DNA from: Plantactinospora alkalitolerans
GTDB lineage: Bacteria > Actinomycetota > Actinomycetes > Mycobacteriales > Micromonosporaceae
Direction of reading: 5' to 3'
Assembly: GCF_015690345.1 (NCBI RefSeq)
Contig: NZ_JADPUN010000209.1
Coordinates: forward strand, 1-37,488
Length of the DNA stretch: 37,488 nucleotides
The notes under the pieces are model-generated. The model ran no database searches, had not been told where the DNA came from, and was given only the letters and a program-made list of their open reading frames with translations. Every line of letters starts with the position of its first letter. Within the stretch, counting starts at the first letter, position 1. Shown one piece after another: positions 2,564 through 23,629 of the stretch. The position numbers and the translations under genes were made by a program.

Positions 2564-3643
2564 ATGCCACACCAACCTCAACTCGCGGAGTCCGACTCCA
2601 CCGAGTCCAGCGGGGTGACCCCCGACGAGCAGCCGACCGGGGCACCGGCTCCGAAGCGAAGCCGCCGCACCAGGCGGATCCTCCTGATCACGCTGCTGGT
2701 GTTGGCACTGCTCGGCGCCGGTGGTGCGGTCGCGGCCGGCCTCTACGTGCGTTCGGTGGAGGGCAGCATCCCTCGGGTGGAGGCGTTCGGCGAGGTGCCC
2801 GAGGAGTCGCGCCCGGTCAAGGTGGCGCAGGATGCCAAGAACATCCTCATCCTCGGCAGCGACACCCGTGACCCGGCGAACACCTCCGGTTCACGAAGCG
2901 ACACCATCATCGTCGCCCACCTGCCGAAGGACCGGTCGAGCGCCCAGCTGGTGTCGATTCCCCGGGACACCTGGGTGAGCGTGCCCAAGAGCAAGAACGG
3001 CAAGCACGGCGGCCGGAACGCGAAAATCAACGCCGGATACGCCTGGGGTGGCCTTCCGCTGATGGTGCAGACGGTCGAGAAGTTCACCGGGGTCCGCATC
3101 GACCACGTCGCGATCGTCGACTTCGCCGGCTTCAAGGAGATCGTGGACGCGCTGGGCGGCGTGCAGGTCAACGTCGAGGAGAGCTTCACCTCGACCCACT
3201 CCCTGCTGCCGGGCGGACGACGGGAGTTCAGCAAGGGCCCGCAGACGATGGACGGTGCGAAGGCGCTGGACTACGCCCGGGAACGCTTCGCCTTCAAGGA
3301 CGGGGACTTCGCCCGGATCCGGCACCAGCAGCAGGTCATCAGGGCGATCCTGGACAAGGCAGCCTCCGGCGGCACGCTCGCCAACCCGGCGCGACTGAAC
3401 TCCTTCGTCAAGGCCTCCGCCGACGCCGTCTCGGTCGACAAGACCATGTCCATGCTCGACCTGGCGATGGAACTGCGTCACCTGCGCAGCGGCAACCTCA
3501 CCTTCATCACCAGCCCGACCCAGGGGACCGGCAACGTCGGCTCGGAGAGTGTGGTGTTCGCCAACACCGAGGGGGCCAAGAAGTTCTACGATGCGGTCCG
3601 CCGGGACGCCGTACCGGAGATCCTGAAGGCTGCGACGAAATAA
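2564..3643 (+). CDS. LCP (LytR-CpsA-Psr) family glycopolymer transferase
   Basis: 359-residue membrane protein. A basic, disordered cytosolic N-terminus (1-37, KRSRRTRR) precedes one membrane helix at about 38-62, then an extracellular LCP domain from about residue 90. LCP hallmarks visible are NILILGSDTRDP, RSDTIIVAHLPKD, the SIPRDTWV segment carrying the conserved Arg-Asp, KINAGYAWGG, and YARERFAFKDGDFARIRHQQQ. Family members move undecaprenyl-linked glycopolymers onto peptidoglycan or onto arabinogalactan-type acceptors. It lies directly upstream of a priming sugar-phosphate transferase, so it may attach the polymer made by this locus to the wall; that link is inference. The start is ATG 2564, where the RBS is weak. 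Confidence 0.9.
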   Translation: MPHQPQLAESDSTESSGVTPDEQPTGAPAPKRSRRTRRILLITLLVLALLGAGGAVAAGLYVRSVEGSIPRVEAFGEVPEESRPVKVAQDAKNILILGSDTRDPANTSGSRSDTIIVAHLPKDRSSAQLVSIPRDTWVSVPKSKNGKHGGRNAKINAGYAWGGLPLMVQTVEKFTGVRIDHVAIVDFAGFKEIVDALGGVQVNVEESFTSTHSLLPGGRREFSKGPQTMDGAKALDYARERFAFKDGDFARIRHQQQVIRAILDKAASGGTLANPARLNSFVKASADAVSVDKTMSMLDLAMELRHLRSGNLTFITSPTQGTGNVGSESVVFANTEGAKKFYDAVRRDAVPEILKAATK

Positions 3644-3813
3644 CCCGGGCCCGCCGTGGTGGCCCGCCCCTCCGCTCGCCGTCAGCCGGCCGACGGTCCG
3701 TCCGTCCTGAAGGGTGACGGTCCTGGCAATCCGGCTGCTCGGGCCACTATCCTGCTGGCGGCTGCTTCCGGCGCCATGTGCCGCGTCGGGGCGCCACGGG
3801 GGAGGTCATAGAA

Positions 3814-5373
3814 ATGTCGAGCTGGCCGGCGGTGCAGCACGGCCCGGCGGAACTGTCCGGTACCGACCCCGGTGGCCGACTGGCACCGGCCCCCGGGGCG
3901 GAGATCGGGGCGGCGGGCGAGGGCGACGGGCCGCGCGGCGTTCCCCGACCCCGGACGCCGTTCGGGCCGGACGCGCCGGTCCGACCCCGGTCCGACCTCG
4001 ACACCACCACCGTGCTGCCCTACGCCGGATCGGTCGCGTCGAAACGTACCCGGAGCCTGCGCGCCTGGATGCTGGCCGCCCCGGTCGACCTCGCCGCCCT
4101 GCTGGCGCCGCTGCTGTTGTCGGACCGCTACTGGCGCGGCACCCTGTTCGCGGCCGGTCTCACCGTGGCCATCTTCGCGACCGGCGGACTCTATCGTGGA
4201 CGTCGGCACATGAGTATCCTCGACGAGTTGCCCAATCTCGGCGGCCGGCTGCTCGCTACCGCGGCCATCGTGGCGATCATCGCCGCCATGCGGCACGGCT
4301 CGGTGGAGTACGTCGCCGGCTTCATGCGGGGAGTGGCTCTCTCCGCCGGCCTGGTCATCACGGGCCGGGCGATCACCCGGAGCATGGTCGTCCTGGCCCG
4401 ACGGCGGCGCTGGGTGGAGCACAACGCGATCATCATCGGCAGCGGCCCCATCGCCGGTGAACTCGCCCGGCTGCTGCGGCGCTATCCCCAGTACGGTCTC
4501 CGGTTCGTCGGCTGTGTCGACGTCGACGACGACCAGGCTCCCGGGGCACCCCCGCTGATCGGCACCCTCGACAACCTCGAACAACGGGTGGCGCTGGTCG
4601 AGTGTGACGTCCTCATCGTCGCGGACCCGCACTGCCTGGAACCCACGGTGATGGAACTCCTGGCCCGTCCGGCGTACGCCCACTGTGACCTGTGGACCGT
4701 GCCGAGGCTGTGGGGATCCCGCTCACCCGGCGGGCTGCCCGACCACATCGGTGCGATCCCGGTCGTCCAGATCCGCCACACCACCCTGTCCGGTCCGCGA
4801 TGGATGGTCAAACGCGCGTCCGACATCGTGCTGGCGTCGATCGCGCTGGTGGTGCTCAGCCCGGTCATCGCGATCTGCGCGCTGCTGACGCTCTGCGAAG
4901 GGGGCCGGGGCATCTTCTTCCGGCAGCAGCGGATCGGCCGGTACGGCGAGCCGTTCGACGTCATCAAATTCCGTACCATGCGGGCCCGGGACGAGCACGA
5001 GTCGCAGACGCGATGGTCGATAGCGGGCGACCTCCGGATCGGACCGATCGGCCGGTTCATGCGCCGCACGTCGCTGGACGAGTTGCCCCAACTCTGGAAC
5101 ATCCTCCGGGGCGACATGACGGTGGTCGGCCCCCGGCCGGAGCGGCCGTACTTCGTCGAGAAGTTCTCCGCCGAGCACCCGGACTACGCGATGCGGCACC
5201 GGGTCCCGGTGGGCCTCACCGGTCTGGCCCAGGTGAGCGGACTGCGCGGCGACACCCCGATCTCCGACCGGGCCCGGTTCGACAACTACTACATCGAGAA
5301 CTGGTCGCTCTGGCTGGACACCAAGGTGCTGCTCCGGACGGTCGCCGAGGTGTTTCGCGGCGGTGGTCGATGA
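3814..5373 (+). CDS. Exopolysaccharide polyprenyl glycosylphosphotransferase (priming transferase)
   Basis: 519-residue membrane enzyme of the WbaP/WcaJ-like class. Such enzymes transfer a sugar-1-phosphate from an NDP-sugar to undecaprenyl phosphate, the first step of repeat-unit assembly. Layout: a variable Pro/Ala-rich N-terminus of about 75 residues, several membrane helices, a nucleotide-binding-like middle (AIIIGSGPIAGELARLL), another helix (DIVLASIALVVLSPVIAICALL) and the catalytic domain. The catalytic domain shows FFRQQRIGRYGEPFDVIKFRTM, RRTSLDELPQLWNILRGDM and VVGPRPERP, with the conserved Asp-Glu pair and the PRP motif. ATG 3814 is chosen over an upstream GTG at 3778 because GGGGGAGG lies about 8 nt before it. 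The sugar donor cannot be read from sequence. Confidence 0.9.
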   Translation: MSSWPAVQHGPAELSGTDPGGRLAPAPGAEIGAAGEGDGPRGVPRPRTPFGPDAPVRPRSDLDTTTVLPYAGSVASKRTRSLRAWMLAAPVDLAALLAPLLLSDRYWRGTLFAAGLTVAIFATGGLYRGRRHMSILDELPNLGGRLLATAAIVAIIAAMRHGSVEYVAGFMRGVALSAGLVITGRAITRSMVVLARRRRWVEHNAIIIGSGPIAGELARLLRRYPQYGLRFVGCVDVDDDQAPGAPPLIGTLDNLEQRVALVECDVLIVADPHCLEPTVMELLARPAYAHCDLWTVPRLWGSRSPGGLPDHIGAIPVVQIRHTTLSGPRWMVKRASDIVLASIALVVLSPVIAICALLTLCEGGRGIFFRQQRIGRYGEPFDVIKFRTMRARDEHESQTRWSIAGDLRIGPIGRFMRRTSLDELPQLWNILRGDMTVVGPRPERPYFVEKFSAEHPDYAMRHRVPVGLTGLAQVSGLRGDTPISDRARFDNYYIENWSLWLDTKVLLRTVAEVFRGGGR

Positions 5374-5425: not shown

Positions 5426-6685
5426 TCAGTCGGAGGGTACGAACGGCAGCAGTTCGCCCTGGTAGCCGTCCAGGTACTGGGCCGGGTCGGCGCCCAGCAC
5501 GGAGCCGAGGACCGTACCGACGACGTCCCGGAAGTCCACCGTGGCCTTGAGATCACCGTCGTCCAGATCGGTCAGGCTGGGCTGTTCCCCGTAGAACCCG
5601 CCGACCACCCGGGGACCCAGGACGAAGACCGGCCCGGCGGTGCCATGGTCGGTGCCGTCGGAGGCGTTCGCCCGCACCCGCCGGCCGAACTCGCTGTAGA
5701 CGACCACCACCACCTGCTGTCCGGCGTCGGTCTCGGCCATCCTGGTGACGAAGCTCGTCAGGGCCTCGTCGAGCTGCTTCAGCAGCACCTCGTGTCCGGC
5801 CCGTTCCTCGGCGTGCGTGTCGAACCCGCCCAGGCTCACCGAGTAGACCTGGGTCGGCACACCCACCTCGACGCAGCGGGCCACGAGCGCGAGCTGGGCG
5901 GTGAGGGCGTTCTCGCCACCGGTGCTGGTGGCCGGCACGACGCGTTCGTCACCGGCGTCGGGTGACTGGGTGGCCTGCCCGGCCCCGCGTACGACATCTC
6001 CCATGGTGAGCAGGTCCGCGAACGAGGCTGCGGCGCGGGCCTGCATCTCCGGCTCGTTCGGCTGACCGCGACCCAGCCCCGCGACCAGGTCCGGACTGAT
6101 CCAGTCGGGCAGGGTGAGGCCCCGGTAACTGACGCAGGCGCCGATCCGGGACCTGCCGACCAGCAGTGGTGGAAGTACCGGCTCGAAGCTCACGGCCGCC
6201 TCGACAGGTGCGTTCACGCCGTCCAGCCACCGTCCCACCCAGCCGGTCGGCGCCGGGTTGACCGGCGAAGCGGTCTGCCAGATGTCCATCGACCGGAAGT
6301 GGCTACGGTCCGGCTTCGGATACCCGACCCCGAGCACGATGCCGAGCCGTCCGGCGTCCCAGAGTCCCTTCAGGCCCCGCATCCTGGGGTTCAGCCCGAG
6401 CCTGTCGTCCAGGCGCAGCACCTTTCCGGGGCCGTACGCCAACTCGGGCCGGGCCGAGTGGTAGGCCCGGTCCGCATACGGGACGACCGTGTTCAGGCCG
6501 TCGTTGCCGCCGTACAGGGTGACCAGGACGACCTTGCTGGTCTGCCGGACCGGAACGACGGGAGCCGCCTTCGACGAGGTGCCGAGCAGCCGGTGCAGCC
6601 CGATCGCGCCGGCGCCGGCGGCCACCGCGCCGCCGCCCAGCACCCCGGAGGCGACGAGGAACCGACGTCGGGTGAGCGCGTCCAT
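5426..6685 (-). CDS. DUF1501 family protein, Tat-exported
   Basis: 419-residue protein with an evident twin-arginine signal (MDALTRRRFLVASGVLGGGAVAAGAGAIG), so it is probably exported folded. The mature part shows DUF1501 features of the alkaline-phosphatase/sulfatase-like fold: KVVLVTLYGGNDGLNTVVPYAD near the N-terminus, GGFDTHAEE in the middle, VVVVYSEFGRRVRAN, and a late DGTDHGTAGPVFVLG. Members are often annotated only as DUF1501; catalytic activity is not established. Its ATG follows the TGA of the upstream DUF1800 gene after one base, so the two are almost certainly translationally coupled. Such pairs are common across bacteria. Its place between priming transferase and glycosyltransferase genes, on the opposite strand, is unusual. 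Confidence 0.88.
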   Translation of the reverse strand: MDALTRRRFLVASGVLGGGAVAAGAGAIGLHRLLGTSSKAAPVVPVRQTSKVVLVTLYGGNDGLNTVVPYADRAYHSARPELAYGPGKVLRLDDRLGLNPRMRGLKGLWDAGRLGIVLGVGYPKPDRSHFRSMDIWQTASPVNPAPTGWVGRWLDGVNAPVEAAVSFEPVLPPLLVGRSRIGACVSYRGLTLPDWISPDLVAGLGRGQPNEPEMQARAAASFADLLTMGDVVRGAGQATQSPDAGDERVVPATSTGGENALTAQLALVARCVEVGVPTQVYSVSLGGFDTHAEERAGHEVLLKQLDEALTSFVTRMAETDAGQQVVVVVYSEFGRRVRANASDGTDHGTAGPVFVLGPRVVGGFYGEQPSLTDLDDGDLKATVDFRDVVGTVLGSVLGADPAQYLDGYQGELLPFVPSD

Positions 6686-6686
6686 C

Positions 6687-7955
6687 TCAGGTCACCAGGT
6701 ATTCGGGGCTGACGAGTCCGAGCGTCAGCAGCAGACGTGCGTTTCGTACGTCGCGCAGCACGGCATAGGTCCTGTCGGTCCACTTGTCGATGCAGAGAAT
6801 GTACGCGACGTCCTCCGGAGTCAGCCGACCCGGCGTGAGCTGGCTGGCGAGTTTGCCGGCCAGACTGAGCCTCAGTTGCGCGCCGGCCGACGTCAACCAG
6901 GTGGCGCCGGCCGGCCAGCCGCCGACGCTGGGCGGTGCGAACGGTCGCTGCCCGAGCCCGCCCAGCCCGTCGAGGAGCTGGGTCAGGGTCTCCGGAGGGA
7001 TCCTCGTAGGCCGCAACTCCAGCTGCCGCATCGCACCGACCAGCCACTCGATGGGCTGCTTCACCATCGTTCCGCGGGTGCTGGCGAACGCCTCGTCCGT
7101 GTAGAGGGATCGGAGCATCGACATCGGCGCCGGAAACGCCCCGGCCATCCGCTCGCTGGTCCGCTCCGGAATGGGCAGGGTCGAGGAGGCGTAGCGGAAC
7201 CACAACCTGGAGGCGATGAACTGCACACACTCGATCCGGCTCAGCAGCAGGTTCACCACGCTGGTGGCGGTGAATTTCTCGGTCGAGCCGAGGATCGTCT
7301 TCCGTCCGTCGTCGTGCTTCCGCCGGTCGAGGACCGATGTCGCCGACCCGAGGTTGATCCGCCAACCGGTGAGCGCCCGGCCCACCTCCTTCACGTCCCG
7401 CTCGGTGTACCGCCCGTGCCCCAGCAGGAACAGTTCGAGCAGCTCACGACCGAGGTTCTCGTTCGGCGCCTCCTTGGTGTTGAGGTGCCCGTCCAGCCAG
7501 TAGACCAGGGCGGGGTCGACGACCATCCGCCGCGCGGTCTCCGCGATGTCGCGGGACTCCCGCAGGGTGCGGTGCTGCGCCAGCATCAGCTGCGGACTCT
7601 TGACCTTCGTCACCGAGGTGGCCCAGTGTCCGTGCCAGAAGAACAGCAGCTTCTCGACGGCCTGGTGGTTCGCCACCACCATGCGTTCCAGCCACCACCG
7701 GGTGATCAGGTCCGTCTGCGTCTTCCGGATCCGGTCGGCCTCGGTGCGCTGCCGGGACGTCGGATTCGGGCGTTCGGCGTACGGGTCGAGGCCGAGGGCC
7801 GGGATGGGCGCGCTGCTCGCCCCGATGTCCGGCCCGAACGGAGCGACGAGAGTCGACACGGTGGCCTCGTAGCCGGCCTGCCGCGCTGCGGTCAGCTCTG
7901 CGGCGGTCGGCCCGAAGCCGGCCCGACGCAGCAGCAACCCGACGTCGTCGGTCAT
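6687..7955 (-). CDS. DUF1800 domain-containing protein
   Basis: 422-residue protein starting MTDDVGLLLRRAGFGPTAAELTAARQAGY. DUF1800 signatures are clear: LLRRAGFG at the N-terminus, LLFFWHGHWATSV, ENLGRELLELFLLGHGRYTERDVKEVGRALTGW in the middle, and VGGWPAGATWLTSA near the C-terminus. No signal peptide is seen. ATG 7955 is chosen because GGTGG precedes it by a few bases; an in-frame ATG about 8 codons upstream and longer readings up to 8219 are less likely. It is the first gene of a two-gene operon with the Tat-exported DUF1501 protein. The pair is conserved in many phyla but has no proven biochemical role. Confidence 0.88.
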   Translation of the reverse strand: MTDDVGLLLRRAGFGPTAAELTAARQAGYEATVSTLVAPFGPDIGASSAPIPALGLDPYAERPNPTSRQRTEADRIRKTQTDLITRWWLERMVVANHQAVEKLLFFWHGHWATSVTKVKSPQLMLAQHRTLRESRDIAETARRMVVDPALVYWLDGHLNTKEAPNENLGRELLELFLLGHGRYTERDVKEVGRALTGWRINLGSATSVLDRRKHDDGRKTILGSTEKFTATSVVNLLLSRIECVQFIASRLWFRYASSTLPIPERTSERMAGAFPAPMSMLRSLYTDEAFASTRGTMVKQPIEWLVGAMRQLELRPTRIPPETLTQLLDGLGGLGQRPFAPPSVGGWPAGATWLTSAGAQLRLSLAGKLASQLTPGRLTPEDVAYILCIDKWTDRTYAVLRDVRNARLLLTLGLVSPEYLVT

Positions 7956-8225
7956 GCTGCCACCATAGGTGCCGGGCATCCTGATCGGAACGCCGGGCCG
8001 AACCGTTCGGGCTCCATGCCCTGGCCAGGCTATCCGGCGAGGCGCCGACACCGGCCGGATGCCCGACGCGGCGGGGCACGCTGACGGCGGCAGGATGACA
8101 GGAAACTCGGCCGGACGAGTCCGTCTCCGCGACCGACGCCACTGACGGCCGGGGTCGGAACGCTGCGGTATCATCCCGGCCTGGAACTGGCTGGTTCGGG
8201 TACTTGCGGGAGAGTCCAAGTTGGC

Positions 8226-9425
8226 ATGTCATGGCGTCCGGCCCGCGAACCGTGCCCGCGCCGGTTGGTTCCCGTCGAAACTTCCGGCGACATGATCCCG
8301 GCCGGACGGCAGTCGGACCTCGGCAGCTCTCCCGGGTTGCGTCCGCTCCGTGATCGCTCGGTCGCGCTGGTGCACGAGTGGTACGGCGCGACGGGCGGGT
8401 CGGAGGAGGTGTTCCGACGCATCGCCGACCTGGTGCCGCACGCCGAACGCTTCGTCCTGTGGAAGGACCGGAACGTCTCCGAGCCCGGCCTGCGGGAGTC
8501 CTGGCTGGCCCGGACCCCGCTGACCCGCAGCAAGGCGCTTGCCCTACCGCTGATGCCACTCGTCTGGCGCACGCTCACCCGCGAGCGCTACGACGTCGTC
8601 ATCTCGTCCAGCCACGCGTTCGCGCACACGGTTCGGCTGGGCCCACCAGAGCAGACCAGGTACCTCAGCTACGTGCACGCCCCGGCGCGTTACCTCTGGA
8701 GCCCGACGTTCGACGGCCGCGGTTCGAACCCGCTACTGGCTCCACCCCGGCGGCTCCTGCGGGCCGTGGACGTACGGCTCAGCCGCCACGTGCACGGTTA
8801 CGCCGCGAACTCACGAGAGGTCCAGAACCGGATCAGGCGCTACTGGGGTCGCGACGCCACTGTGATCAATCCGCCGGTCGACACGGACTACTTCGCCGCA
8901 GCGCCACCGAACGACCGGCGGCAGGCCCGCGACTACCTGCTCGGGGTCGGCCGGTGGATTCCGTACAAGAACTTCGACCTCGTCATCGCGATCGCCGAGG
9001 CGGCCGGGCTGCCGCTCGTGCTCGCCGGCTCCGGACCCGAGGAGGCGAATCTGCGCCGCCTAGCGGGCCGGGTCGGCGTGCCCGTCACGTTCGAGGTCAT
9101 GCCCGGCAAGGAGAGGTTGCGGCAGCTCTACTGGGGGGCGCGGGCGTTGCTGTTCCCGGTGCACGAGGACTTCGGCATCATCCCCGTCGAGGCCCAGGCG
9201 TGCGGTACTCCCGTGCTGGGACTGCGCCGGGGCGGCCTGCTGGAGACGGTGACCGACGGGGAGGCCGGCTTCCTCGTCGACTCGCTGGACCCGGCGGAGT
9301 TCGGCCGGCTCGTCCGGCGGCTTCCCGAGCTGACGCCGGAACGGATCCAGGACCACGCCGGCGTCTTTTCCAAGCAGGAGTTCGCGGCGAGGATGTCGGC
9401 GTGGATCGACCATGAGTCGAACTGA
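8226..9425 (+). CDS. GT4-family glycosyltransferase
   Basis: 399-residue GT-B fold enzyme. The N-terminal acceptor domain contains SVALVHEWYGATGGSEEVFRRIA (the Gly-rich loop typical of GT4) and YLSYVHAPARYLWSP. The C-terminal donor domain has YLLGVGRWIPYKNFDLVIAIAE, LVLAGSGPEEANLR and the E-x7-E region FPVHEDFGIIPVEAQACGTPVLGLRRGG. It should add a sugar to a lipid-linked intermediate at the cytosolic membrane face; donor and linkage are unknown. Start ATG 8226 has GGGAGAG about 11 nt upstream; ATG 8292 is possible. A TATCAT hexamer at 8169-8174 could be the -10 of the glycosyltransferase operon. This is the first gene of a five-gene run in which neighbours overlap or nearly touch. Confidence 0.88.
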   Translation: MSWRPAREPCPRRLVPVETSGDMIPAGRQSDLGSSPGLRPLRDRSVALVHEWYGATGGSEEVFRRIADLVPHAERFVLWKDRNVSEPGLRESWLARTPLTRSKALALPLMPLVWRTLTRERYDVVISSSHAFAHTVRLGPPEQTRYLSYVHAPARYLWSPTFDGRGSNPLLAPPRRLLRAVDVRLSRHVHGYAANSREVQNRIRRYWGRDATVINPPVDTDYFAAAPPNDRRQARDYLLGVGRWIPYKNFDLVIAIAEAAGLPLVLAGSGPEEANLRRLAGRVGVPVTFEVMPGKERLRQLYWGARALLFPVHEDFGIIPVEAQACGTPVLGLRRGGLLETVTDGEAGFLVDSLDPAEFGRLVRRLPELTPERIQDHAGVFSKQEFAARMSAWIDHESN

Positions 9426-10650
9426 CGGCGACAGCCCGGTGCCGGACCAGTTGCTCACCCCGGGCGAGGGTGGCCCGGTCGAGGCGTCGGCGATGACGGT
9501 GCTGCACGTCAGCCACACCGCCCAGCCGGGCGGCGCCGAACTCGCCCTCGTCCGGCTGCTCACCCAGCAGCGGCGGCACTGGCGGGCCCGGCTGTGCGCG
9601 CCGGGCAACGGCACCGCGTTCGACGGGTTGGCCGCGCACGGCGTCGGACTGGAGCGGAACCTGCCGGCGTTGCCGACCGGCGGCACCCGGGGCGGAAGCC
9701 TGCTGCTCGCGGCGCGTTACCTGCGTGCCCTGCAGGCCGGGGCCGGTGTCCTGGCGCGCAGCCGGCTGTTCCGGGACGCCGATCTGGTGCACGCGAACAC
9801 GGCCGCCGCGGCGATCTGCTCCGCGTTCGCCGACCGGGGCGGGGCGAAACCGTTGGTGGTGCACCTTCGTGACCTCGTCACCACCGACAGCCTGGGCCGG
9901 TTCGGCTTCGGGGCGTTCACCAGGATCGCGCTGGGGCGGGCCGACGGCGTGATCGCCAACTCGCGGACGACACTGACATCGGCCGAGCGGTGGCTGCGGC
10001 CCGGACTGCCCAGAATGGTGATCCAGAGCCCGGTCGGCATCGACCGTCGGGTGACGGCCCCCCGCCTCGGCGCCGCCGTACGGCGGATCGGGATGGTCGG
10101 GCGGCTGCAGCGGTGGAAGGGGCAGCACGTCTTCCTCCGGGCGTTCGCACTGGCCTTCCGGGGCACCGACGTGCGGGCCCGGATCGCCGGAGCACCACTG
10201 TTCGCCGAGACGGCCTACGAGACCGAGATCCGTCGCCTCGTCGCCGAATTAGGCATCGCCGACCAGGTGGACCTGCTCGGCCACGTCGACGACGTACCGG
10301 GATTCCTCGACTCGGTCGATATCCTGGTACACGCCTCGACCAGACCGGAACCGCTGGGACAGACCGTCATCCAGGGGCTGGCCCGGGCGCTGCCGATCGT
10401 CGCGACCGAGGGAGGCGGCCCGGGGGAGTGGATCCGGTCGGGCGTCAACGGCCTCCTCGTACCCCCGAACGATCCCGAGGCGCTCGGCGGGGCGCTGCTG
10501 AGGCTGGCGGACTCCGCAGAACTCCGGGCCGGGCTGGCGGCGGGCGCGGCGGCGACGCCGGGAATCCGCACCGACGAGGAGTGCCAGGCACACCACGCAG
10601 GGTTCTTCCGGGCAGTCTGGCAGGCGCGACGCGACGCGGGCGGGAAGTGA
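9412..10650 (+). CDS. GT4-family glycosyltransferase
   Basis: 412-residue GT-B glycosyltransferase. It shows TVLHVSHTAQPGGAELALVRLL at the start of the Rossmann fold, ADLVHANTAAAAICSA, the donor-domain opener RIGMVGRLQRWKGQHVFLRAF, and TRPEPLGQTVIQGLARALPIVATEGGGPGEWI carrying the GT4 E-x7-E-like site (Gln-for-Glu variants occur). Its ATG lies inside the previous gene (14-bp overlap), which implies translational coupling. An internal ATG at 9494 starts exactly at the conserved fold and is an alternative. The role is presumably repeat-unit assembly with its neighbours. Confidence 0.85.
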   Translation: MSRTDGDSPVPDQLLTPGEGGPVEASAMTVLHVSHTAQPGGAELALVRLLTQQRRHWRARLCAPGNGTAFDGLAAHGVGLERNLPALPTGGTRGGSLLLAARYLRALQAGAGVLARSRLFRDADLVHANTAAAAICSAFADRGGAKPLVVHLRDLVTTDSLGRFGFGAFTRIALGRADGVIANSRTTLTSAERWLRPGLPRMVIQSPVGIDRRVTAPRLGAAVRRIGMVGRLQRWKGQHVFLRAFALAFRGTDVRARIAGAPLFAETAYETEIRRLVAELGIADQVDLLGHVDDVPGFLDSVDILVHASTRPEPLGQTVIQGLARALPIVATEGGGPGEWIRSGVNGLLVPPNDPEALGGALLRLADSAELRAGLAAGAAATPGIRTDEECQAHHAGFFRAVWQARRDAGGK

Positions 10651-10655
10651 GCCAG

Positions 10656-11861
10656 ATGACGGAGGGCCGAGCTGACCTGAGGGTCGCGTACATCCTGCTC
10701 CGCTCGCCGAGCTACAGCGAGACGTTCATCTCGTCGGAGATCCGGGCGGTCCGGGCCGCCGGCGCCACCGTCGAGGTTTTCGTCGCCCGCCCCGGCGGCC
10801 GGCGTGCCGAACTCGCCCGGGTCGTCCGTACGCTGTTCCGTCATCCGGTCCGACTGCTCGCCCAGGTACGCACGCTCGGCGGCACGGACGTCCGGCGGGC
10901 GCTGCTGGCCGGCAGCCACGCGCTCGCGCTCGCCGAGGAGGTCGCATCCTTCGCGCCGGACGTCGTGCACGCGCACTTCGTCAACCTGCCGACCGCGGTC
11001 GCGGCACTCGTGGCGAGAGAGCTCGGTAAGCCCGCGACCGCCGTCGCGCACGCCGCCGACTTCCTGCTGGACCGGAACCCGGTCGGGCTGGCCCGGCGGC
11101 TCGGTCTGCTCCGCCACCTGTTCGTCATCTCGGCCGCGACCGTCCGGCAGCTCGAGGCCCGAGGGGTGGCCATGTCGACGATCCCGCACGGCATCGTCCG
11201 GGCCGCGTTCGACGGTGAACTGCCCGAGCCGGCGCCGCCCGGTCCGGCCGGCCCGGTACGACTGGTCACGGTCGCCCGCCTGGTCGAGAAGAAGGGTGTC
11301 GGCACCAGCGTCGACGCGGTGGCCCGGCTCGCGGCCACGGGTCTCGACGTCCACTACGACGTCTACGGCGACGGACCACTGCGGGCCACCCTGGAGCGCC
11401 GGGCGCAGGAGTGTGGCGTCTCCGCCGCCGTGACGTTCCACGGCGCGGTGTCGCACGCGGTGGCGACCGAGGCGCTGGCCACCGCGGACGTCGCGGTGCT
11501 GGCCTGTACGCGCGGCACCGACGGGGACCTCGACGGCATTCCGGTCTTCCTGATGGAGGCAGCCAGCCGGCAGGTGCCGGTGGTGACCACCGCGGTCTCC
11601 GGCATCCCCGAGCTCGTCGAGGAGGGCGGTGGCTGGCTGGTCCCGCCCGACGACCCGGCGGCGCTGGCCGAGGCGGTGACGCAGGTGGTGCAGAACCGGG
11701 CGGAGGCGCGGCGCCGCGTGGACAGGCTCGTCGCCCGGCTGCGCACGGAGTTCCCTCCCGAGCGGCAGGCCGAACGGCTACTCGACACCTGGCACCGACT
11801 GGTCGATCCGGCCCGCCGGCAGCGGGCGGTCGACGACGCTGTCCCCCCGGTGAGGCGCTAG
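10656..11861 (+). CDS. GT4-family glycosyltransferase (WcaL/AmsK-like)
   Basis: 401-residue enzyme. LRVAYILLRSPSYSETFISSEIRAV matches the opening of exopolysaccharide transferases related to WcaL/AmsK. DVVHAHFVNLPTAVAALVARELGKPATAVAHAADF follows, then the donor domain RLVTVARLVEKKGVGTSVDAVARL, YGDGPLR, and GIPVFLMEAASRQVPVVTTAVSGIPELVEEGGGWLVPPDDP with the catalytic Glu pattern. ATG 10656 is chosen (GGGAAG 8 nt upstream); an in-frame GTG at 10647 overlapping the previous stop is an alternative. The next gene begins five bases after its stop. Substrate is unknown. Confidence 0.87.
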   Translation: MTEGRADLRVAYILLRSPSYSETFISSEIRAVRAAGATVEVFVARPGGRRAELARVVRTLFRHPVRLLAQVRTLGGTDVRRALLAGSHALALAEEVASFAPDVVHAHFVNLPTAVAALVARELGKPATAVAHAADFLLDRNPVGLARRLGLLRHLFVISAATVRQLEARGVAMSTIPHGIVRAAFDGELPEPAPPGPAGPVRLVTVARLVEKKGVGTSVDAVARLAATGLDVHYDVYGDGPLRATLERRAQECGVSAAVTFHGAVSHAVATEALATADVAVLACTRGTDGDLDGIPVFLMEAASRQVPVVTTAVSGIPELVEEGGGWLVPPDDPAALAEAVTQVVQNRAEARRRVDRLVARLRTEFPPERQAERLLDTWHRLVDPARRQRAVDDAVPPVRR

Positions 11862-11865: not shown

Positions 11866-13068
11866 ATGGGACTGACCGTCGTCTCCACGTTCTTTCCGCT
11901 GCCCCCGGACCGGGGCGACCCGGTCCGGGTACTCATGATGCTTCGGGCGATATCACGGATCCAGCCCTTCACCCTCGCGGTGGTGCGGCGGCCCGACACC
12001 ACCGGCGACCAGCTCGACCAGTTGGGCGGGATGCTGCCGGAGGTGGAGGTTCGGGACTATCCGGCGACGCCGTACCGACTGGACCGGCTGGGGCCGTTCG
12101 GTCGCTATCCGGAGGCGATGGCCGACGGACTGCCACCGTGGATCCGGAGCCGTTACAGCCAGCCGTTGCACGACGACCTGCGGACCCGTGACGGCGCGGG
12201 GATCGCCATCGGGGAGGCGGCAGCGGTGTATTTCCGGGGCACCCGGCTGCGCTGGCACTGGGACAAGGCCAACGTACTGGCCGGGAGTACCCGGGGGGAC
12301 ATCGCTGAGGCCGAGGACCTCGCACACCAGCTCCGGGCGCGGTACCTGGCCGGGATCTCGACCCGGTTCGAGTCGCGGGCGCTGTCGGAGTGCGAGACGG
12401 TCTCGGTGACCAGTGCCGAGGAAGCCACCCGGCTCGCCGAGCACCATCGCCGGAGGGCGGACTTCACGTTGCCGAGCTGCGTACCGATGCCGGTCGGACA
12501 TGTTCCGCGACCGCAGGAGCGCCACCTGGTGTGGCTCAGCAGCTTCTCGTACCGCGCCAACCTGGCCGGGCTGCGGCACTTTCTCGACCGGGGATGGCCG
12601 TCACTGCGCCGTGCGGGCTTCCGGCTGACCCTGGTCGGATCGGGCCTCACCGATCGGGTGCGGGCCAGTCTCGCCGCGATCGACGGTGTCGACGTGCCGG
12701 GCTACGTGGCGGATCTCCGTCCGGTGCTCGCGCGGGCCAGGGCCGCCGTGGTTCCGGTCTGGAGCGGCGCCGGGGTCAAGCTGAAGACCCTCACCCTGCT
12801 GGCCCACTCCGTCCCGGTCTTCACTACCCCGGTCGGCGCCGAGGGTGTTCCGGCGACGGAAGCCGTCCGGCTGGCGGACACCCCGGAGGCACTGGCGGCG
12901 GAGATCCTCGGGTCGTCGGCGGCCGAGTTGGACGCGATGGTCGCCGCCGGGGCTCGCCTGATCGAGGGCCAGTTCTCCGAGGACCGGTTCGCCGAGCGTC
13001 TGGTCGACGCGCTCGCCAGGCACGGCTATCTCGACGTCACCGGCACCTCGTTCCGCCAAGGAATCTGA
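11866..13068 (+). CDS. GT4-like glycosyltransferase
   Basis: 400-residue protein starting MGLTVVSTFFPLPPDRGDPVRVLMMLRAI, the usual N-terminal pattern of GT4-like enzymes. The donor half contains LVWLSSFSYRANLAGLRHFLDRGWP, FRLTLVGSGL, and VVPVWSGAGVKLKTLTLLAHSVPVFTTPVGAEGV, which is the G-x-K-hinge seen in this subgroup in place of the classic E-x7-E. It is more divergent than the three transferases before it. Its TGA overlaps the ATG of the flippase-polymerase gene by one base (TGATG), so the pair is translationally coupled. Confidence 0.82.
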   Translation: MGLTVVSTFFPLPPDRGDPVRVLMMLRAISRIQPFTLAVVRRPDTTGDQLDQLGGMLPEVEVRDYPATPYRLDRLGPFGRYPEAMADGLPPWIRSRYSQPLHDDLRTRDGAGIAIGEAAAVYFRGTRLRWHWDKANVLAGSTRGDIAEAEDLAHQLRARYLAGISTRFESRALSECETVSVTSAEEATRLAEHHRRRADFTLPSCVPMPVGHVPRPQERHLVWLSSFSYRANLAGLRHFLDRGWPSLRRAGFRLTLVGSGLTDRVRASLAAIDGVDVPGYVADLRPVLARARAAVVPVWSGAGVKLKTLTLLAHSVPVFTTPVGAEGVPATEAVRLADTPEALAAEILGSSAAELDAMVAAGARLIEGQFSEDRFAERLVDALARHGYLDVTGTSFRQGI

Positions 13069-15845
13069 TGTCGACGAGGAAACTGGTCTCCGCCTCCTTC
13101 GCGAACCTGCTCATCCCGATCAGCGGACTTCTCGTCAGCCCGTTCCTCTCCCGGGAACTGGGACCCGACGGTCGTGGTCTCTACGCCGCGCTCACCCTGC
13201 CGATCGTCGTCTGTGGCTGGATCGGCACGTACGGGCTACAGGACGCGCTCAGTTACCACCTGCGCACCGGCAGGCTGTCGAGACGGACCGCCGCCAAGGT
13301 CAGTCTGGTGGCCTCGGTGCCTCTCGGACTGCTCGGGATCGGGCTGCTCGCCGTGCTCGGGCGCTTCGTCTTTCCCGGCGGCGACGGGCACTACGGGCAG
13401 TTCCTTCTGCTGTCCCTGCTCGCACCGCTGCACATTCTCGCCAACCTGCTCATCGGCGCGCTGACCGGCGCCTCCGACATTCGCGGCGTCAACCTGGTGA
13501 AGGTCGTGCCCGCACTGCTCAGAACGGCACTTGTCGTCTTCGCCTGCCTGACGCTGGACCTGGGCGCCTACTGGGCCGGCCTGCTCTTCGTGGCCTCGGT
13601 GAGCGGTGGACTCGTCCTCGGACTCGTCCGGCTCCGCTCGGCACCGGAGCGGGTCGATTCGCCGGGGGAGGGCACCGGAGATCCGCCCGAGCCGCCGGAC
13701 GGGACCATACCCGCCCGCTCACTGCTGGCGTACTCGCTGACCTGCCTGCCCGGTGTCCTGGCAGCGATCTCCAGTGCGCGGCTCGACCAGATCGTCGGGC
13801 TGCCGGTCATCGGGGCGCGGGAACTCGGCTACTACGCGGTGGCGGTGAGTGTCGCGGAGATACCGATGGTGATCGCGACGGCGGCCCGGACGGTGCTGAT
13901 GGGCCGGCCGGGCAGTGACGACCGGCGTCGGGGCAGTGCCGTCGCCCGGCTCGCCGTGCTGGCGTCGACCGTCGCGAGCGGGGTACTGGCGGCGATCGCG
14001 GGCGTTGCCGTGCCGTGGGTGTTCGGTGCCGCGTTCGCCCCGGCCGTCGTGCCCACGGTCATCCTCTGCGCGGCGACGACGCTCTACACCAGCATGGTGA
14101 TTTTCAGCGCGGTCCTGCTGTCGAACGGCAGGGCGGCCTGGTCCTCCGGCGCACTGGTCGCCGGTTCCGTCCTCGGCATCGTGTTGCTGTTCCTGCTCGC
14201 GCCGATGGGTGCGGTGGGGGCGGCGATCGCCAGCCTGGCGGGTTACGGAGTGTCGGTGGTGGCCGCCGGCGCGATGGTGAGGAGAGTGCCGGAGTTGCCT
14301 TCCCTGCGGGAACTGACGGTGCCGTACCGGGAGGATCTGCGTTCCTTCGGCGGGTTGGCGGCCGGGTTCGTCGGCCGCTTCCGGAGGCGGGCCACGGCCG
14401 ATCCGGGTCCGGCCGATCCGGGTCGGGCCGATTCTGGTCGGGCCGGTGCCAGCCTGGCGGACCCGGCCGGGCCACCCGGGCCCGCGACCTCGCTCCGGTG
14501 GTCGGTCGGCACCCTTGCGCACCGGATCGACATCGGCACCTTCGGGACGGGCCTGCTGTTCGTCCTCGCCTGGCTCCGGTTGATGGTGCCGATGCTGATC
14601 CAGCTGTTCGACTCGGGGCGCCCGGAGTTCAACTCGAGACAGGACCTCGTCCCCCCGGTCAGCGACCTCCTCGGCAACGCCCTCAGCCTGGCGTTCATCC
14701 TGGTGGCGGCCGTTCTCGCGGCGCACGGCGGCTACCGGCACCGACCGGCGCGGCTGTGGTCGCTCGCCGCCGTCCTCGCCCCCTTCGTCGCGATCGAGGC
14801 GGCCGGGCTCCTCAACCACCAGCGGCCCGGCCTGGTGTCGCTGGCACTTCCACTCGCCGCGGTCGCGATCTGGCTCCAACCGGTCCGACGCGAGGTCCTG
14901 GGGGTGATCGGCATCCTGGGCGCCGCCACCGCAACCGGATCGATCCTGCTGGCGCTGGTCCGTCCCGACCTCGCCCTCATCTCCGGGACGGCGGCGGGAG
15001 ACAAGAGCGGACTTCTCGGCGGCCTGCTCGCCGGTCCCTTCCTGCACTCCAACGTGCTCGGCATCGCACTGGCCCTGAGCATTCCGTTCGTGTTCTGCGT
15101 CGGGCATCCGCTGATCCGCCGCGGCGGGCTGGTCGTCCTGCTCTTCGCGTTGTTCTGGACCGGTTCGCGCAGCAGTCAGCTGGCGGTCGCCGCCGTCCTC
15201 TTCACATACCTGCTGATCCGGCTGTTCCCGACCCGGATCTGGATGCTGTGGACCATGATGACGGCCGGAGTCGCGGCCGTCGTGTTCGTGCCGCTGCTCA
15301 CCACGGACCCGGAGGCGTTCACCCGCCGTGGCCGGATCTGGCACACGCTGCTGGACCAGTGGGCCGAGCATCCCCTGCTGGGTTACGGTCCCCGGTACTT
15401 CCAGCGCGAACCGGACCTGGCGGTGGAGCTGGGAGGTGAGTTCACCCACGCGCACAACGCCATGGTCCAGTTTCTCGTCGTCGGCGGCCTGGTCACCACG
15501 GCGGTGGTCGCTCTTCTTCTCGTGCTCACCTGGCGGCGCTCGATGGCCCTGGCGACGGCCGGCTTCCCGGCCGCGGCGCTCTTCCTGGTCGCGTTCCTGT
15601 ACGTCTCGTGGCTGGAGGCGTCGCACGTGCCGACCACACTGGCCGGGCACGCGACCTGGCTTCCGCTGATGGTGATCGCGCGGCTCGGTCTGCCGGCCGG
15701 CGGTGCACCGCCCGCCCCGGCCGGGGCGGACCGGGGCGGCCGGTCACGGGCCGGTGCCGCCGGCTGGCTGAACGGGACGGCGGGGGCGCTGCAACAGCGG
15801 CTGACGAAGGGGTCGCCTCAGAAGACGACTGTGTCGCGGATGTAG
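13068..15845 (+). CDS. Fused Wzx-type flippase and Wzy/O-antigen-ligase-type polymerase
   Basis: A single uninterrupted frame encodes 925 residues. Residues about 1-440 look like a polysaccharide flippase of the MOP/MVF superfamily (MSTRKLVSASFANLLIPISGLLVSPFLSRELG, then repeated paired helices and GYYAVAVSVAEIPMVI). Residues about 443-485 are a Pro/Ala/Asp/Gly linker that includes three 15-bp DNA repeats (14397-14441). Residues about 495-890 are a second polytopic module with O-antigen-ligase/polymerase features: a FWTGSRSSQLAVAA segment, a loop containing RIWHTLLDQWAEHPLLGYGP, and THAHNAMVQFLVVGG. Normally these are two proteins: Wzx moves the lipid-linked unit outward and Wzy polymerises it. 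The fusion would couple both steps. The C-terminus overlaps the convergent downstream gene by 28 bp. Confidence 0.85.
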   Translation: MSTRKLVSASFANLLIPISGLLVSPFLSRELGPDGRGLYAALTLPIVVCGWIGTYGLQDALSYHLRTGRLSRRTAAKVSLVASVPLGLLGIGLLAVLGRFVFPGGDGHYGQFLLLSLLAPLHILANLLIGALTGASDIRGVNLVKVVPALLRTALVVFACLTLDLGAYWAGLLFVASVSGGLVLGLVRLRSAPERVDSPGEGTGDPPEPPDGTIPARSLLAYSLTCLPGVLAAISSARLDQIVGLPVIGARELGYYAVAVSVAEIPMVIATAARTVLMGRPGSDDRRRGSAVARLAVLASTVASGVLAAIAGVAVPWVFGAAFAPAVVPTVILCAATTLYTSMVIFSAVLLSNGRAAWSSGALVAGSVLGIVLLFLLAPMGAVGAAIASLAGYGVSVVAAGAMVRRVPELPSLRELTVPYREDLRSFGGLAAGFVGRFRRRATADPGPADPGRADSGRAGASLADPAGPPGPATSLRWSVGTLAHRIDIGTFGTGLLFVLAWLRLMVPMLIQLFDSGRPEFNSRQDLVPPVSDLLGNALSLAFILVAAVLAAHGGYRHRPARLWSLAAVLAPFVAIEAAGLLNHQRPGLVSLALPLAAVAIWLQPVRREVLGVIGILGAATATGSILLALVRPDLALISGTAAGDKSGLLGGLLAGPFLHSNVLGIALALSIPFVFCVGHPLIRRGGLVVLLFALFWTGSRSSQLAVAAVLFTYLLIRLFPTRIWMLWTMMTAGVAAVVFVPLLTTDPEAFTRRGRIWHTLLDQWAEHPLLGYGPRYFQREPDLAVELGGEFTHAHNAMVQFLVVGGLVTTAVVALLLVLTWRRSMALATAGFPAAALFLVAFLYVSWLEASHVPTTLAGHATWLPLMVIARLGLPAGGAPPAPAGADRGGRSRAGAAGWLNGTAGALQQRLTKGSPQKTTVSRM
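14397..14441 (+). repeat. Three 15-bp tandem repeats in the fusion linker
   Basis: Unit GCCGATCCGGGTCCG at 14397-14411, repeated with one change at 14412-14426 and with further changes at 14427-14441. In frame it encodes five-residue units such as ADPGP/ADPGR/ADSGR in the hydrophilic linker between flippase and polymerase halves. Slippage at such repeats could vary linker length without breaking the frame. Confidence 0.85.
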
Positions 15846-17296
15846 TTGGCGATCCGCCGCAGCTGGTTCGCCCCGTCGGGCGGCGCCGTCATCCGGAACA
15901 CGACCTGACGATCGACCACGCCCTCGCTGCCGCCGCGCCAGTACGCAACGATGATCAGGACGTACCGCTCCTTGCCGTCGATGTTCAGCGAGCTTCGCTC
16001 GGCGTAGGTGCTGTAGCGTCCGGTACTCACCCACTGCAGGCCCCAGGCCTCTTCGGCGCGCCGCATGGAGTTCTGCTGGTCCTGGCCACACGGACTCGGG
16101 CAGTTCCGGACCACGATCTCGCCGCCGATCTCCGGGTTCTCGCCCGGAGAAACCCCGCAGTAGTGCTTGGCGTAGCCGTCCGCCTTGCCGCCGGGAATGC
16201 ACTGCCACTCCCGGGGCACCTTGACGGTGAAGCCCAGGCCGTCCAGGTCGGTCAGGGTGCGGACGCCGTCCGTGGCCCCGAACTTGGGCCACTGCGCCGG
16301 CCAGGTGCCCTGCCTCGGCGGCTCCAGGCCAGGATTGAGGGCCGACGCGGTCGGCAGCGGCGCCGGGGGCTGACTGGTCGCCGGCGCGCTCTCGGCCGGC
16401 GGGTTCGGGTCGTTGCCGCCCGACCGGTTCAGCGCGAGGACGGTTCCACCACCAGCGAGGACGAGTACGACGAGCACGGCGATCCCGATCCACAGTCGAC
16501 TTCGCGACGGCGCCGGTTCGGACGGCACGATGTGCCGAACGGGGGAGTAGAGCGGATCGTACGAAGACGGCGGATCGCCGGAGATTCCTCCGCTCGGTCC
16601 CGGTCGCGGCATCTCCGGCAGCGGCTGCGGCGGCCCGGAGATCGAGTCCGGTGGTACGGAGATCTGGTGCGGAGGCACCGAAACCTGGTAGGGCGGCCCG
16701 GAACTCTGGTGCGGCGGCACGGAGACCTGGTCCGGTGGCACGGAAACCTGGTCCGGTGGCACGGAAACCTGGTCGGGCGGTCCGGACACCTGGTGCGGCG
16801 GCGTGGACGTCGGCTCCCCGGTGACCAGCGGCTGCGGCGGTCCGGCCTGCCAGGGACCGGGCGGTGCCAGGCCCGGCGTCAGCCGCGTCGTCGGCGTGGC
16901 GAATTCGTCCTCGTCCGCCCCGGGCGGAGCACCGACGCTCGGCGTCTTGACGGTGACCGACTCGACTTCACCGGGTTCCGACTGGGTGGGTCGGCACTCC
17001 ATGCCGAGCGCAGCGAACAACTGCTCCGCCCCGGGGCCGTCGCCGCTGGCGTAGACGACCCAGGGTGCGGCGGCCGCGAAGTCGGCGTGTACGTAGCGTA
17101 GCCCGCCCGTTCCTGGCTGTGCCAGCCCGTGGGCCGTTCCGGCGAACGCGTCCCGCCAGCGTTGGTCGCCCGCCACGGTCGCGTCGAGTACGGCCACCGT
17201 GTACGAGTTTCCCTGCCCGTCGATAGCAGACCAGACGCTGCCCACCTGACACAGGCTGATCGCCTCGATGAACTGGTACGGACCCACTGGCTGCAT
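15818..17296 (-). CDS. Pseudokinase-like, Pro-rich single-pass membrane protein
   Basis: 492-residue protein. Residues 1-100 (VGPYQFIEAISLCQVGSVWSAID...YTVAVLD...WVVYAS) follow the N-lobe layout of actinobacterial Ser/Thr kinases, but the Gly-loop is degenerate and the VAVK lysine is missing. No HRD or DFG motif follows, so activity is very unlikely. Residues about 166-221 are eight heptads of the PPDQVSV type. One membrane helix (about 268-289, LWIGIAVLVVLVLAGGGTVLAL) leads to an extracytoplasmic domain of about 200 residues with four Cys (CIPGG, YCGV, RNCPSPC). ATG 17296 has a GGGAG/GGTTGGG upstream. It converges on the flippase-polymerase gene and overlaps its 3' end. It could sense or scaffold surface-polymer assembly; this is only inference from position and topology. 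Confidence 0.8.
   Translation of the reverse strand: MQPVGPYQFIEAISLCQVGSVWSAIDGQGNSYTVAVLDATVAGDQRWRDAFAGTAHGLAQPGTGGLRYVHADFAAAAPWVVYASGDGPGAEQLFAALGMECRPTQSEPGEVESVTVKTPSVGAPPGADEDEFATPTTRLTPGLAPPGPWQAGPPQPLVTGEPTSTPPHQVSGPPDQVSVPPDQVSVPPDQVSVPPHQSSGPPYQVSVPPHQISVPPDSISGPPQPLPEMPRPGPSGGISGDPPSSYDPLYSPVRHIVPSEPAPSRSRLWIGIAVLVVLVLAGGGTVLALNRSGGNDPNPPAESAPATSQPPAPLPTASALNPGLEPPRQGTWPAQWPKFGATDGVRTLTDLDGLGFTVKVPREWQCIPGGKADGYAKHYCGVSPGENPEIGGEIVVRNCPSPCGQDQQNSMRRAEEAWGLQWVSTGRYSTYAERSSLNIDGKERYVLIIVAYWRGGSEGVVDRQVVFRMTAPPDGANQLRRIANYIRDTVVF
16634..16801 (-). repeat. Eight 21-bp tandem repeats encoding a Pro-rich heptad
   Basis: Eight in-frame 21-bp units within the preceding gene encode PPHQVSG, PPDQVSV (three near-identical copies), PPHQSSG, PPYQVSV, PPHQISV and PPDSISG. 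The central three copies are almost identical at DNA level, which indicates recent duplication; outer copies have diverged. The repeats lie on the cytosolic side of the membrane helix. Confidence 0.9.
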
Positions 17297-19031: not shown

Positions 19032-19105
19032 TCGGCTCGCGAATCTGATCGCGACCACATCCGTCCGGGCAGGCGGGAGCCGCGCCCCCAGCAGGAGAGG
19101 TGGAC

Positions 19106-20623
19106 ATGCCGCCGGCCAAGCAACCGCAGATCTGGTTCCTCACCGGAAGCCAGCACCTGTACGGCCCGGAGACCCTCGACCAGGTCGCGAGTCAGTCGCA
19201 GCAGATCATGCGCACGCTCACCGGCTCCGGTCGGGTCGTCGCGGAGATCGTCTGGAAGCCCGTACTCACCGAGGCCTCGGCGATCCGCGCGGTCCTGCTG
19301 GAGGCGAACGCCGACCCGGCCTGCCTCGGTGTGATCGCCTGGATGCACACCTTCTCGCCGGCCAAGATGTGGATCAGCGGGCTCGACGCGCTCCGTAAGC
19401 CGCTGCTGCACCTGCACACCCAGCTCAACGAGGCGCTGCCCTGGGAGTCCATCGACATGGACTTCATGAATCTCAACCAGGCCGCGCACGGCGACCGGGA
19501 GTTCGGCTTCATCCAGACCCGGCTCGGGCTGGCCCGCAAGACCATCGCCGGGCACGCCTCCGATCCGACCGTGGTGTCCCGGATCGACGAGTGGGCCCGG
19601 GCCGCGCTCGGCTACGACCACCTGCGCAATCTCCGGCTGGCACGGTTCGGCGACAACATGAGGGACGTCGCCGTCACCGAGGGTGACAAGGTGGAGGCGG
19701 AACTCCGGTTCGGCGTCTCGGTGAACACCTACGGCGTCAACGACCTGGTCGACGTCGTGGACCGGGTCGCCGACGTGGAGATCGACCGGCTCGTCGCCGA
19801 GTACGCCGACACCTACCGACTCGCTCCGGAACTGGCCAAGGACGGCGACCGGCACGACTCGCTGCGCTACGCGGCCCGGATCGAGGCCGGCCTGCGGCAG
19901 TTCCTCACCGACGGCGGATTCGGGGCGTTCACCACCAACTTCCAGGACCTCGGCGGGCTTCGCCAACTACCCGGACTCGCCGTGCAACGGTTGATGGCCG
20001 ACGGCTACGGCTTCGGCGGCGAGGGCGACTGGAAGACCTCGACCCTGTTGGCGGCGGTGAAGGCGATGAGCGTCGGTACCGGCCGGGGTACCTCGTTCAT
20101 GGAGGACTACACGTACCACTTCGGGCCCGGCGAACCGAAGATCCTCGGCGCGCACATGCTGGAGGTCTGCCCCACCATCGCGGGCGGGCAGCCCTCGTGC
20201 GAGATCCATCCGCTCGGTATCGGCGACCGCGAGGACCCGGTCCGGCTCGTCTTCGACGCCACCTCCGGTCCCGCGGTGGTGATCGGTCTGGCCGACCTCG
20301 GCGAACGGTTCCGTCTCGTCGCCAACGAGATCGAGGTCGTGCCGCCGGACGAGCCGATGCCGAAACTGCCGGTCGCGCGCGCCGTATGGAAGCCGGCGCC
20401 GTCGCTGACCACGTCGGCCGAGTCCTGGCTGACCGCCGGAGGCCCGCACCACACCGTGCTGACCCAGGCGGTCGGTTCGGCGACCCTGCGGGACTTCGCC
20501 GACATGCTGCACACCGAGTTGGTACTCATCGACAAGAACACCACGACGGTGGACTTCCGGGACCGGTTGCGCTGGAACCAGGCGTACCACCGGCTCGCCC
20601 AGGGGCTGCCCGGCCGGAACTGA
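19106..20623 (+). CDS. araA: L-arabinose isomerase
   Basis: 505-residue enzyme converting L-arabinose to L-ribulose, the first step of bacterial arabinose use. The sequence begins [24 protein letters not shown]. Catalytic and Mn-binding residues sit where expected: E306 in GEGDWKT, E333 in [12 protein letters not shown]350 in [10 protein letters not shown]449 in GGPHHTV (E. coli numbering E306, E333, H350, H450). ATG 19106 is chosen over GTG 19100 because AGGAGAGG (19093-19100) is then spaced 5 nt away. It is preceded by a LacI-like operator and followed after about 195 bp by a sugar ABC importer on the same strand. Kinase and epimerase genes (araB, araD) are not adjacent. Confidence 0.97.
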
Positions 20624-20708
20624 CCCGACCGGGGCGGGGCCGGGCATGCCGACTCCATCGATCCATGGTGGAGTGACGATGGTCCGACGTACGTCACCGG
20701 CCGGCCCC

Positions 20709-20759
20709 GCGGGTCGCGTACCGCGCGACCCGCACCCGTTTCAGACCCAGCGGGTCGCG
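20709..20759 (+). promoter_or_regulatory. Alternative hairpins upstream of the sugar-binding protein gene
   Basis: GCGGGTCGCG occurs at 20709-20718 and again at 20750-20759. Its exact complement CGCGACCCGC lies between them at 20724-20733, so an RNA could form either an upstream hairpin (10-bp stem, 5-nt loop) or a downstream one (10-bp stem, 16-nt loop), but not both. It lies 60-110 nt upstream of ATG 20819. This could end readthrough from araA or tune the leader of the transporter operon. No T-tract follows either hairpin. Confidence 0.45.
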
Positions 20760-20818
20760 GCGCAAGCCCGTGTCCCGCAGCGGAGACCCGCACGCAGTAC
20801 CAGGAATTGGAGGAGCAC

Positions 20819-21943: not shown

Positions 21944-21954
21944 TCGCTCCTTCG

Positions 21955-21987: not shown

Positions 21988-22027
21988 AGCACCACCGGCC
22001 ACCCCTCTCGCACGACGGAGGCTTCCG

Positions 22028-23623: not shown

Positions 23624-23629
23624 ACCTCG

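Follow-up and report, generated by a model that had tools for sequence, protein, structure and literature searches.

Here we describe a gene of Plantactinospora alkalitolerans that joins, in one chain of 925 amino acids, a Wzx-type flippase module to a Wzy/O-antigen-ligase-type module. The gene lies in the 37,488 nucleotides of contig NZ_JADPUN010000209.1 (assembly GCF_015690345.1), the whole stretch of DNA analysed here and hereafter called the window. The flippase and polymerase of the Wzx/Wzy pathway are normally separate proteins. The fusion is probably (at a probability of about 0.72) a single-chain enzyme that both flips and polymerises the units of a surface polysaccharide, performing two consecutive Wzx/Wzy steps, and it is fair to infer that export is thereby coupled to polymerisation. 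We also infer that the chain stays uncut, which residues are catalytic, and that the product is a polymer rather than an en bloc oligosaccharide. The gene and its parts are as follows (TM, transmembrane; dN/dS, ratio of nonsynonymous to synonymous substitution rates).

13068..15845, + strand: Wzx-Wzy fusion gene, 925 amino acids, stop included; conserved in five other assemblies
13068..14339, + strand: flippase module, residues 1-424, 12 predicted TM helices, N-in/C-in (TM/charge scan; Polysacc_synt in relatives; Foldseek match to WzxE)
14340..14543, + strand: linker, residues 425-492, predicted cytoplasmic, variable (TM/charge scan, dN/dS, alignment)
14396..14455, + strand: three imperfect 15-base repeat units in the linker (sequence; linker of 52 amino acids in the nearest relative, G003, versus 67)
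14544..15692, + strand: Wzy/O-antigen-ligase-type module, residues 493-875, about 12 TM helices (Pfam Wzy_C; TM scan)
15300..15470, + strand: large predicted extracytoplasmic loop, residues 745-801; R754, H794, H796 and N797 invariant in six fusions

A preliminary description of this DNA had claimed an uninterrupted 925-codon frame, which is borne out at 13068-15845 on the + strand. As the local G+C content is high (about 70-73%) and an antisense frame of 643 amino acids is also open, a long frame alone would prove little. The frame can be considered more than chance because it recurs in five further assemblies and because dN/dS is well below 1 in both modules. Identity to the window protein is 87% for the in-frame fusion of G003 (same genus; genome in one contig), 69% for that of G026 (on an 8.1-Mb contig), 63% for G034, 58% for Micromonospora qiuiae and 57% for M. 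endophytica; the named relatives are Micromonosporaceae. Its ATG overlaps the stop of the fourth glycosyltransferase gene by one base (TGATG), a start common to all six fusions. Comparison of the window with G003 by a Nei-Gojobori script gave dN/dS values of 0.181 (flippase), 0.872 (linker, 49 codons) and 0.302 (polymerase); both modules are under purifying selection.

The preliminary description had itself named a stop and start codon in the linker of close relatives as a finding that would undo the fusion. An assembly error, a frameshift or a lost stop joining two adjacent genes might be suspected given that the linker is repetitive and G+C-rich and that the source genome (9.2 Mb, 96% complete) is divided among 441 contigs, of which the fusion contig (C407) is the window itself and ends where the window ends. 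This explanation is rejected, since five other assemblies carry the same frame, with no stop in the linker of any of these close relatives; they include the single contig of G003 and the 8.1-Mb contig of G026, and the TGATG start is kept in six of six. We consider the chance of an artefact negligible.

The MOP/MVF-type flippase proposed for about residues 1-440 was recovered at about residues 1-424 on the strength of Pfam matches in relatives, 12 TM helices and fold. In the window protein itself, Pfam gave no match in the N-terminal half, and the NCBIfam MOP flippase match (E 0.0075) is far below cut-off. Polysacc_synt is matched by three of the six fusion members (best 2.7e-9) and Polysacc_synt_3 by one (1.1e-6). 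The free orthologous flippase of Dactylosporangium sucinum also matches Polysacc_synt (39 bits vs a cut-off of 28.2), and that of Planosporangium thailandense gave no Polysacc_synt-type profile match. Hydropathy averaged over the six fusions resolves 12 segments, the last ending by residue 404. Lysines plus arginines per sequence amount to 4.2, 0.8, 3.0, 5.2, 1.3 and 12.8 in the inner loops (the last value being that of the stretch 405-492) and to 2.0, 0.7, 0, 1.7, 0.3 and 0 in the outer loops; because the sum is higher for the inner loops, both flippase ends and the linker are predicted to lie inside.

A structural model of residues 1-430, of modest confidence (predicted local distance difference test, pLDDT, 59; predicted template modelling score 0.61), contains 12 long helices. 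Its best Foldseek matches in the PDB are WzxE crystal structures (E 2.0e-5), and all 27 PDB matches at E <= 0.001 to this model of pLDDT 59 are titled WzxE, MATE, MurJ or MOP. WzxE (PDB 9G9N and others; MOP superfamily), described in the available portion of PMC11706664 as having 12 helices in two lobes, resembles the N-terminal half in helix number and is its best fold match, and relatives of the fusion belong to the Polysacc_synt family. WzxE stands free, whereas the C terminus of the fused flippase continues into a second polytopic enzyme.

For the C-terminal half, an O-antigen polymerase/ligase-type module had been claimed at about residues 495-890, and one is present at about 493-875. Pfam Wzy_C (PF04932) is matched at residues 687-814 (E 2.1e-18; 67 bits vs a cut-off of 31.7) and in all six fusion members, so that the lack of Wzy/ligase similarity which would have told against the claim is not observed. 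The TM scan called 12 segments after the linker, of which 637-655 is weak and was read as a loop, and a helix at ~686-700, left uncalled, was added by reading; "about 12" is thus a hydropathy count adjusted by our interpretation of these two stretches. Excerpts of PMC12004945 give Wzy proteins 10-14 helices and outer loops containing arginine. Like Wzy polymerases and WaaL ligases (PF04932), the fused module has a Wzy_C match and a large outer loop with R and H-x-H-N; unlike the free-standing proteins, it has no N terminus of its own and starts after the linker. A search of the PDB by sequence gave no relevant match (one irrelevant match at E 1.8), and a plasmid collection gave no match. The Foldseek list for a full-length AlphaFold model is led by WzxE and MATE, with no usable match for the polymerase half.

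The Wzy_C profile is common to polymerases, WaaL ligases and O-oligosaccharyltransferases, and because they share it the profile alone cannot tell a polymerase from a ligase. The C-terminal half could then act as a ligase or O-oligosaccharyltransferase (WaaL/PglL/TfpM type), transferring a flipped oligosaccharide en bloc to a protein or wall acceptor, with flipping coupled to transfer. A weak similarity to TfpM in NCBIfam (E 0.018-0.044, far short of the cut-off) is in keeping with this, as is the lack of a detected Wzz near the fusion in four genomes; however, the top-scoring NCBIfam family is EpaQ (E 3.7e-5, likewise short of its cut-off). Moreover, the 96%-complete genome of the window has no Wzy_C match at E <= 1e-5 other than the fusion (29 of 40 candidates scored), and the cluster has its own LytR-CpsA-Psr (LCP) transferase, which could perform the attachment. 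For these two reasons polymerisation is the function that would otherwise be missing, and we regard a ligase as unlikely.

Wzz (PF02706) is matched in all seven genomes examined. No Wzz was found near the fusion with this Pfam profile in four genomes, and the absence of a linked co-polymerase is provisional, since co-polymerases outside the profile would be missed. In the window's genome, where the window makes up the entire fusion contig, and in G034 the matches lie on other contigs; in G003 and G026 their distance to the fusion is about 1 Mb or more. As fusion-free genomes of the same genus also have Wzz matches, those of the fusion genomes may serve other systems.

The linker was said to be built partly of 15-bp repeats, and three imperfect units are indeed found at 14396-14455. 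Counted between fixed columns (window residues 424-490), it measures 34-67 amino acids in the six fusions. A looser role for the fusion can be imagined, in which it merely fixes 1:1 expression, the linker being cut or the polymerase also being started inside it, and the two proteins working apart. Near-neutral evolution (dN/dS 0.87 over 49 codons) and variable length of the linker are compatible with such a role. Also compatible are the two Micromonospora fusions, from M. qiuiae and M. endophytica: in each the linker contains an in-frame ATG that lies nine bases after a strong ribosome-binding site, AAGGAG (loci L002 and L003, near fusion residues 460 and 458). The window gene, on the other hand, has no in-frame ATG, GTG or TTG between residues 431 and 504, and the frame is open in six of six fusions. 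We judge independent action of the two halves improbable. For the flip-and-polymerise enzyme, the near-neutral linker speaks for a flexible tether over a rigid joint.

The other genes of the polysaccharide cluster around the fusion are listed below (GT1-GT4, first to fourth glycosyltransferase genes).

2564..3643, + strand: LCP family glycopolymer transferase (Pfam, NCBIfam)
3778..5373, + strand: priming phosphoglycosyltransferase (EPS_sugtrans, Bac_transf; Pfam, NCBIfam)
5426..6685, - strand: DUF1501 protein; accompanies the fusion in the three other fetched loci reaching that far
6687..8219, - strand: DUF1800 protein; accompanies five of five other fusions
8226..9425, + strand: GT1, GT4-type glycosyltransferase (Pfam)
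9412..10650, + strand: GT2, GT4-type glycosyltransferase (Pfam)
10656..11861, + strand: GT3, GT4-type glycosyltransferase (Pfam; start inferred, ATG 10656)
11866..13068, + strand: GT4, Glyco_trans_1_4, stop overlapping the fusion start (Pfam)
15818..17296, - strand: proline-rich 492-amino-acid protein, probably single-TM, no Pfam match; beside six of six fusions

Four glycosyltransferases do precede the fusion as the preliminary description stated, and the overlapping stops and starts it reported hold for two of the four junctions (14 and 1 bases), the other two being gaps of 5 and 4 bases, when GT3 is taken to start at ATG 10656 in the series GT1-GT2-GT3-GT4-fusion. The last gene listed is convergent with the fusion, their 3' ends overlapping by 28 bases. 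G003 and G026 share the LCP, phosphoglycosyltransferase, DUF1501 and DUF1800 genes, GT1-GT4, the fusion and the convergent gene; the Micromonospora loci compared end at DUF1800. A priming phosphoglycosyltransferase and glycosyltransferases adjoin the Wzx and Wzy parts, as is characteristic of the Wzx/Wzy pathway, and the separate Wzx and Wzy proteins of that pathway are replaced by one frame with a linker devoid of a start codon.

In the mechanism we propose, the repeat unit would be assembled on undecaprenyl pyrophosphate by cytoplasmic glycosyltransferases, after priming by the phosphoglycosyltransferase at 3778, and the N-terminal 12-helix MOP flippase would turn it to the outer leaflet. 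The short cytoplasmic linker would tether the Wzy_C polymerase beside the flippase exit, permitting direct handover without release, and the outer loop of the polymerase (R754, H794/H796) would join the unit to the growing chain. For attachment of this chain to the cell wall, a candidate is the LCP protein at 2564.

Several observations weigh against this reading. A fast-evolving linker of 34-67 amino acids argues against precise geometry. Given their in-linker ATG and AAGGAG, the M. qiuiae and M. endophytica fusions may also yield free polymerase as an additional product. The full-length AlphaFold model (pLDDT 48.6) is unusable and no interface between the halves is visible in it. Finally, no match above 90 bits was obtained for GT1, the phosphoglycosyltransferase or LCP in 29 kb of G034, so the cluster is not fixed.

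With the window's own genome included, the whole-protein search matched two of seven genomes of the genus and four of 61 of the family (three of 44 genera), all four being fusions. A six-row profile matched five of 98 genomes of the class, again counting the window's own, and the other four match one module only. Split counterparts occur in D. sucinum and P. thailandense, where GT1-GT4 and an orthologous stand-alone flippase (67% and 54% identical to the window's, respectively) follow in the same order, with phosphoglycosyltransferase and LCP genes nearby; within 17 kb, there was no match for DUF1501, DUF1800, the convergent protein or the fused Wzy. The flippase ends after about 440 amino acids. 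The next gene 3' of it is pectate-lyase-like in D. sucinum and of Wzz/kinase type in P. thailandense, and in both a Wzy_C protein comes after that.

These split clusters share the glycosyltransferases and flippase of the fusion cluster, but their Wzy is separate and of another Wzy_C branch. Neither Wzy, both with Wzy_C, gave a BLAST match to the window's C-terminal half at E <= 10, and the HH profile comparison, which covers the D. sucinum Wzy only, gave no match to the fusion family. In the Wzy tree the two are sisters (100/99), apart from the fused Wzy. Since the split relatives keep an orthologous flippase and a Wzy of another branch, it seems that a different polymerase became attached to the flippase of the cluster when the fusion arose. 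Simple read-through of the two split-cluster genes is not supported, the split Wzy sitting elsewhere in the Wzy_C family.

The closest free Wzy found is that of G067 (tree support 97/92; HH match with probability 97.8 and E 8.1e-13 at profile columns 478-835, confined to the C-terminal half). A GT2-type gene lies between it and a separate flippase gene, and a Wzz/kinase gene adjoins its opposite side. The split state of Dactylosporangium may be original or may reflect loss of a fusion; in the flippase tree, D. sucinum stands beside the Micromonospora pair (93/98). A single clade of fusions was not rejected by the approximately unbiased (AU) test, either with the flippase (p 0.061; two very long outgroup rows) or with GT1-4 plus flippase (p 0.371; G034 without GT1, G026 with partial GT4).

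A second fusion (fusion B, the window's type being fusion A) was found among longer Wzy_C proteins. Wzy_C is matched at E <= 1e-5 in 86 of 118 genomes of the class, and the TM-pattern screen covered 18 of at least 19 other Wzy_C frames of 810 amino acids or more (G074:C61 was left out). Helices run along the whole chain in two of the 18, from G174 and G120 (family f18, another family).

L065:3491-6289 and L068:3754-6714, - strand: fusion B, flippase-like N-terminal half and Wzy_C C-terminal half (TM pattern, Pfam)

The G174 and G120 proteins are 64% identical and resemble fusion A in their continuous helices, Wzy_C half and flippase-like N-terminal half. Wzy_C is matched at 2.4e-15 in G174 and 1.3e-13 in G120; Polysacc_synt reaches 0.0011 (below cut-off) in G174 and is unmatched in G120, so that the flippase assignment draws on one weak match and the helix pattern. 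The N-terminal halves gave no significant BLAST match to the window's, and in a profile comparison with fusion A only the Wzy part aligns (probability 90.5, 26% identity, 225 columns). The gene upstream of each fusion B looks Wzc-like; it lacks a Wzz match, and none of its AAA/ParA-type matches reaches the cut-off. A separate origin of fusion B from fusion A seems likely; the Wzy tree does not favour a single origin but the AU test does not reject one (p 0.126), in a tree where the fusion B pair joins another long branch. More speculatively, fusion may have arisen more than once in actinomycetes, and the window's lineage may have lost a linked Wzz and replaced its original Wzy, leaving a self-contained machine for export and polymerisation whose supply and chain length are governed by tethering instead of by a co-polymerase. 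We hold this extended scenario to be possible, if rather doubtful; if true, it would be direct evidence that Wzx and Wzy act as one complex in nature.

Among the matches listed in a full-text literature search, no natural Wzx-Wzy fusion was found; subscription papers and domain-architecture databases lie outside that scope, and databases may well have entries for this architecture. Nor is one mentioned in the available portions of PMC4594306, PMC9601211, PMC4182512, PMC7112194, PMC12004946, PMC12004945 and PMC11706664. The Wzc-type fusions described in the consulted part of PMC12004946 likewise place two pathway parts in one polypeptide, but they join a co-polymerase to a tyrosine kinase, whereas the present fusion joins a transporter to a polymerase. 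That flippase and polymerase are encoded as one chain in some soil actinomycetes suggests physical coupling of the two steps. A natural single chain fixes stoichiometry and neighbourhood and offers one construct for cryo-EM, coupling could be tested by cutting the linker, and fused and split clusters with the same glycosyltransferases provide a ready natural control.

Some minor features of the window may be added. The DUF1501-DUF1800 pair (5426-8219, - strand) is divergent within the polysaccharide cluster; such a pair is reported beside bacterial chitin synthases in the accessible text of PMC5122149. By eye, the N terminus of the proline-rich 492-amino-acid protein resembles a kinase N-lobe. 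Further downstream, 19100-24892 (+ strand) contains an L-arabinose isomerase gene and, after it, genes for the binding protein, ATPase and permease of a sugar ABC transporter, which are ordinary catabolic genes.

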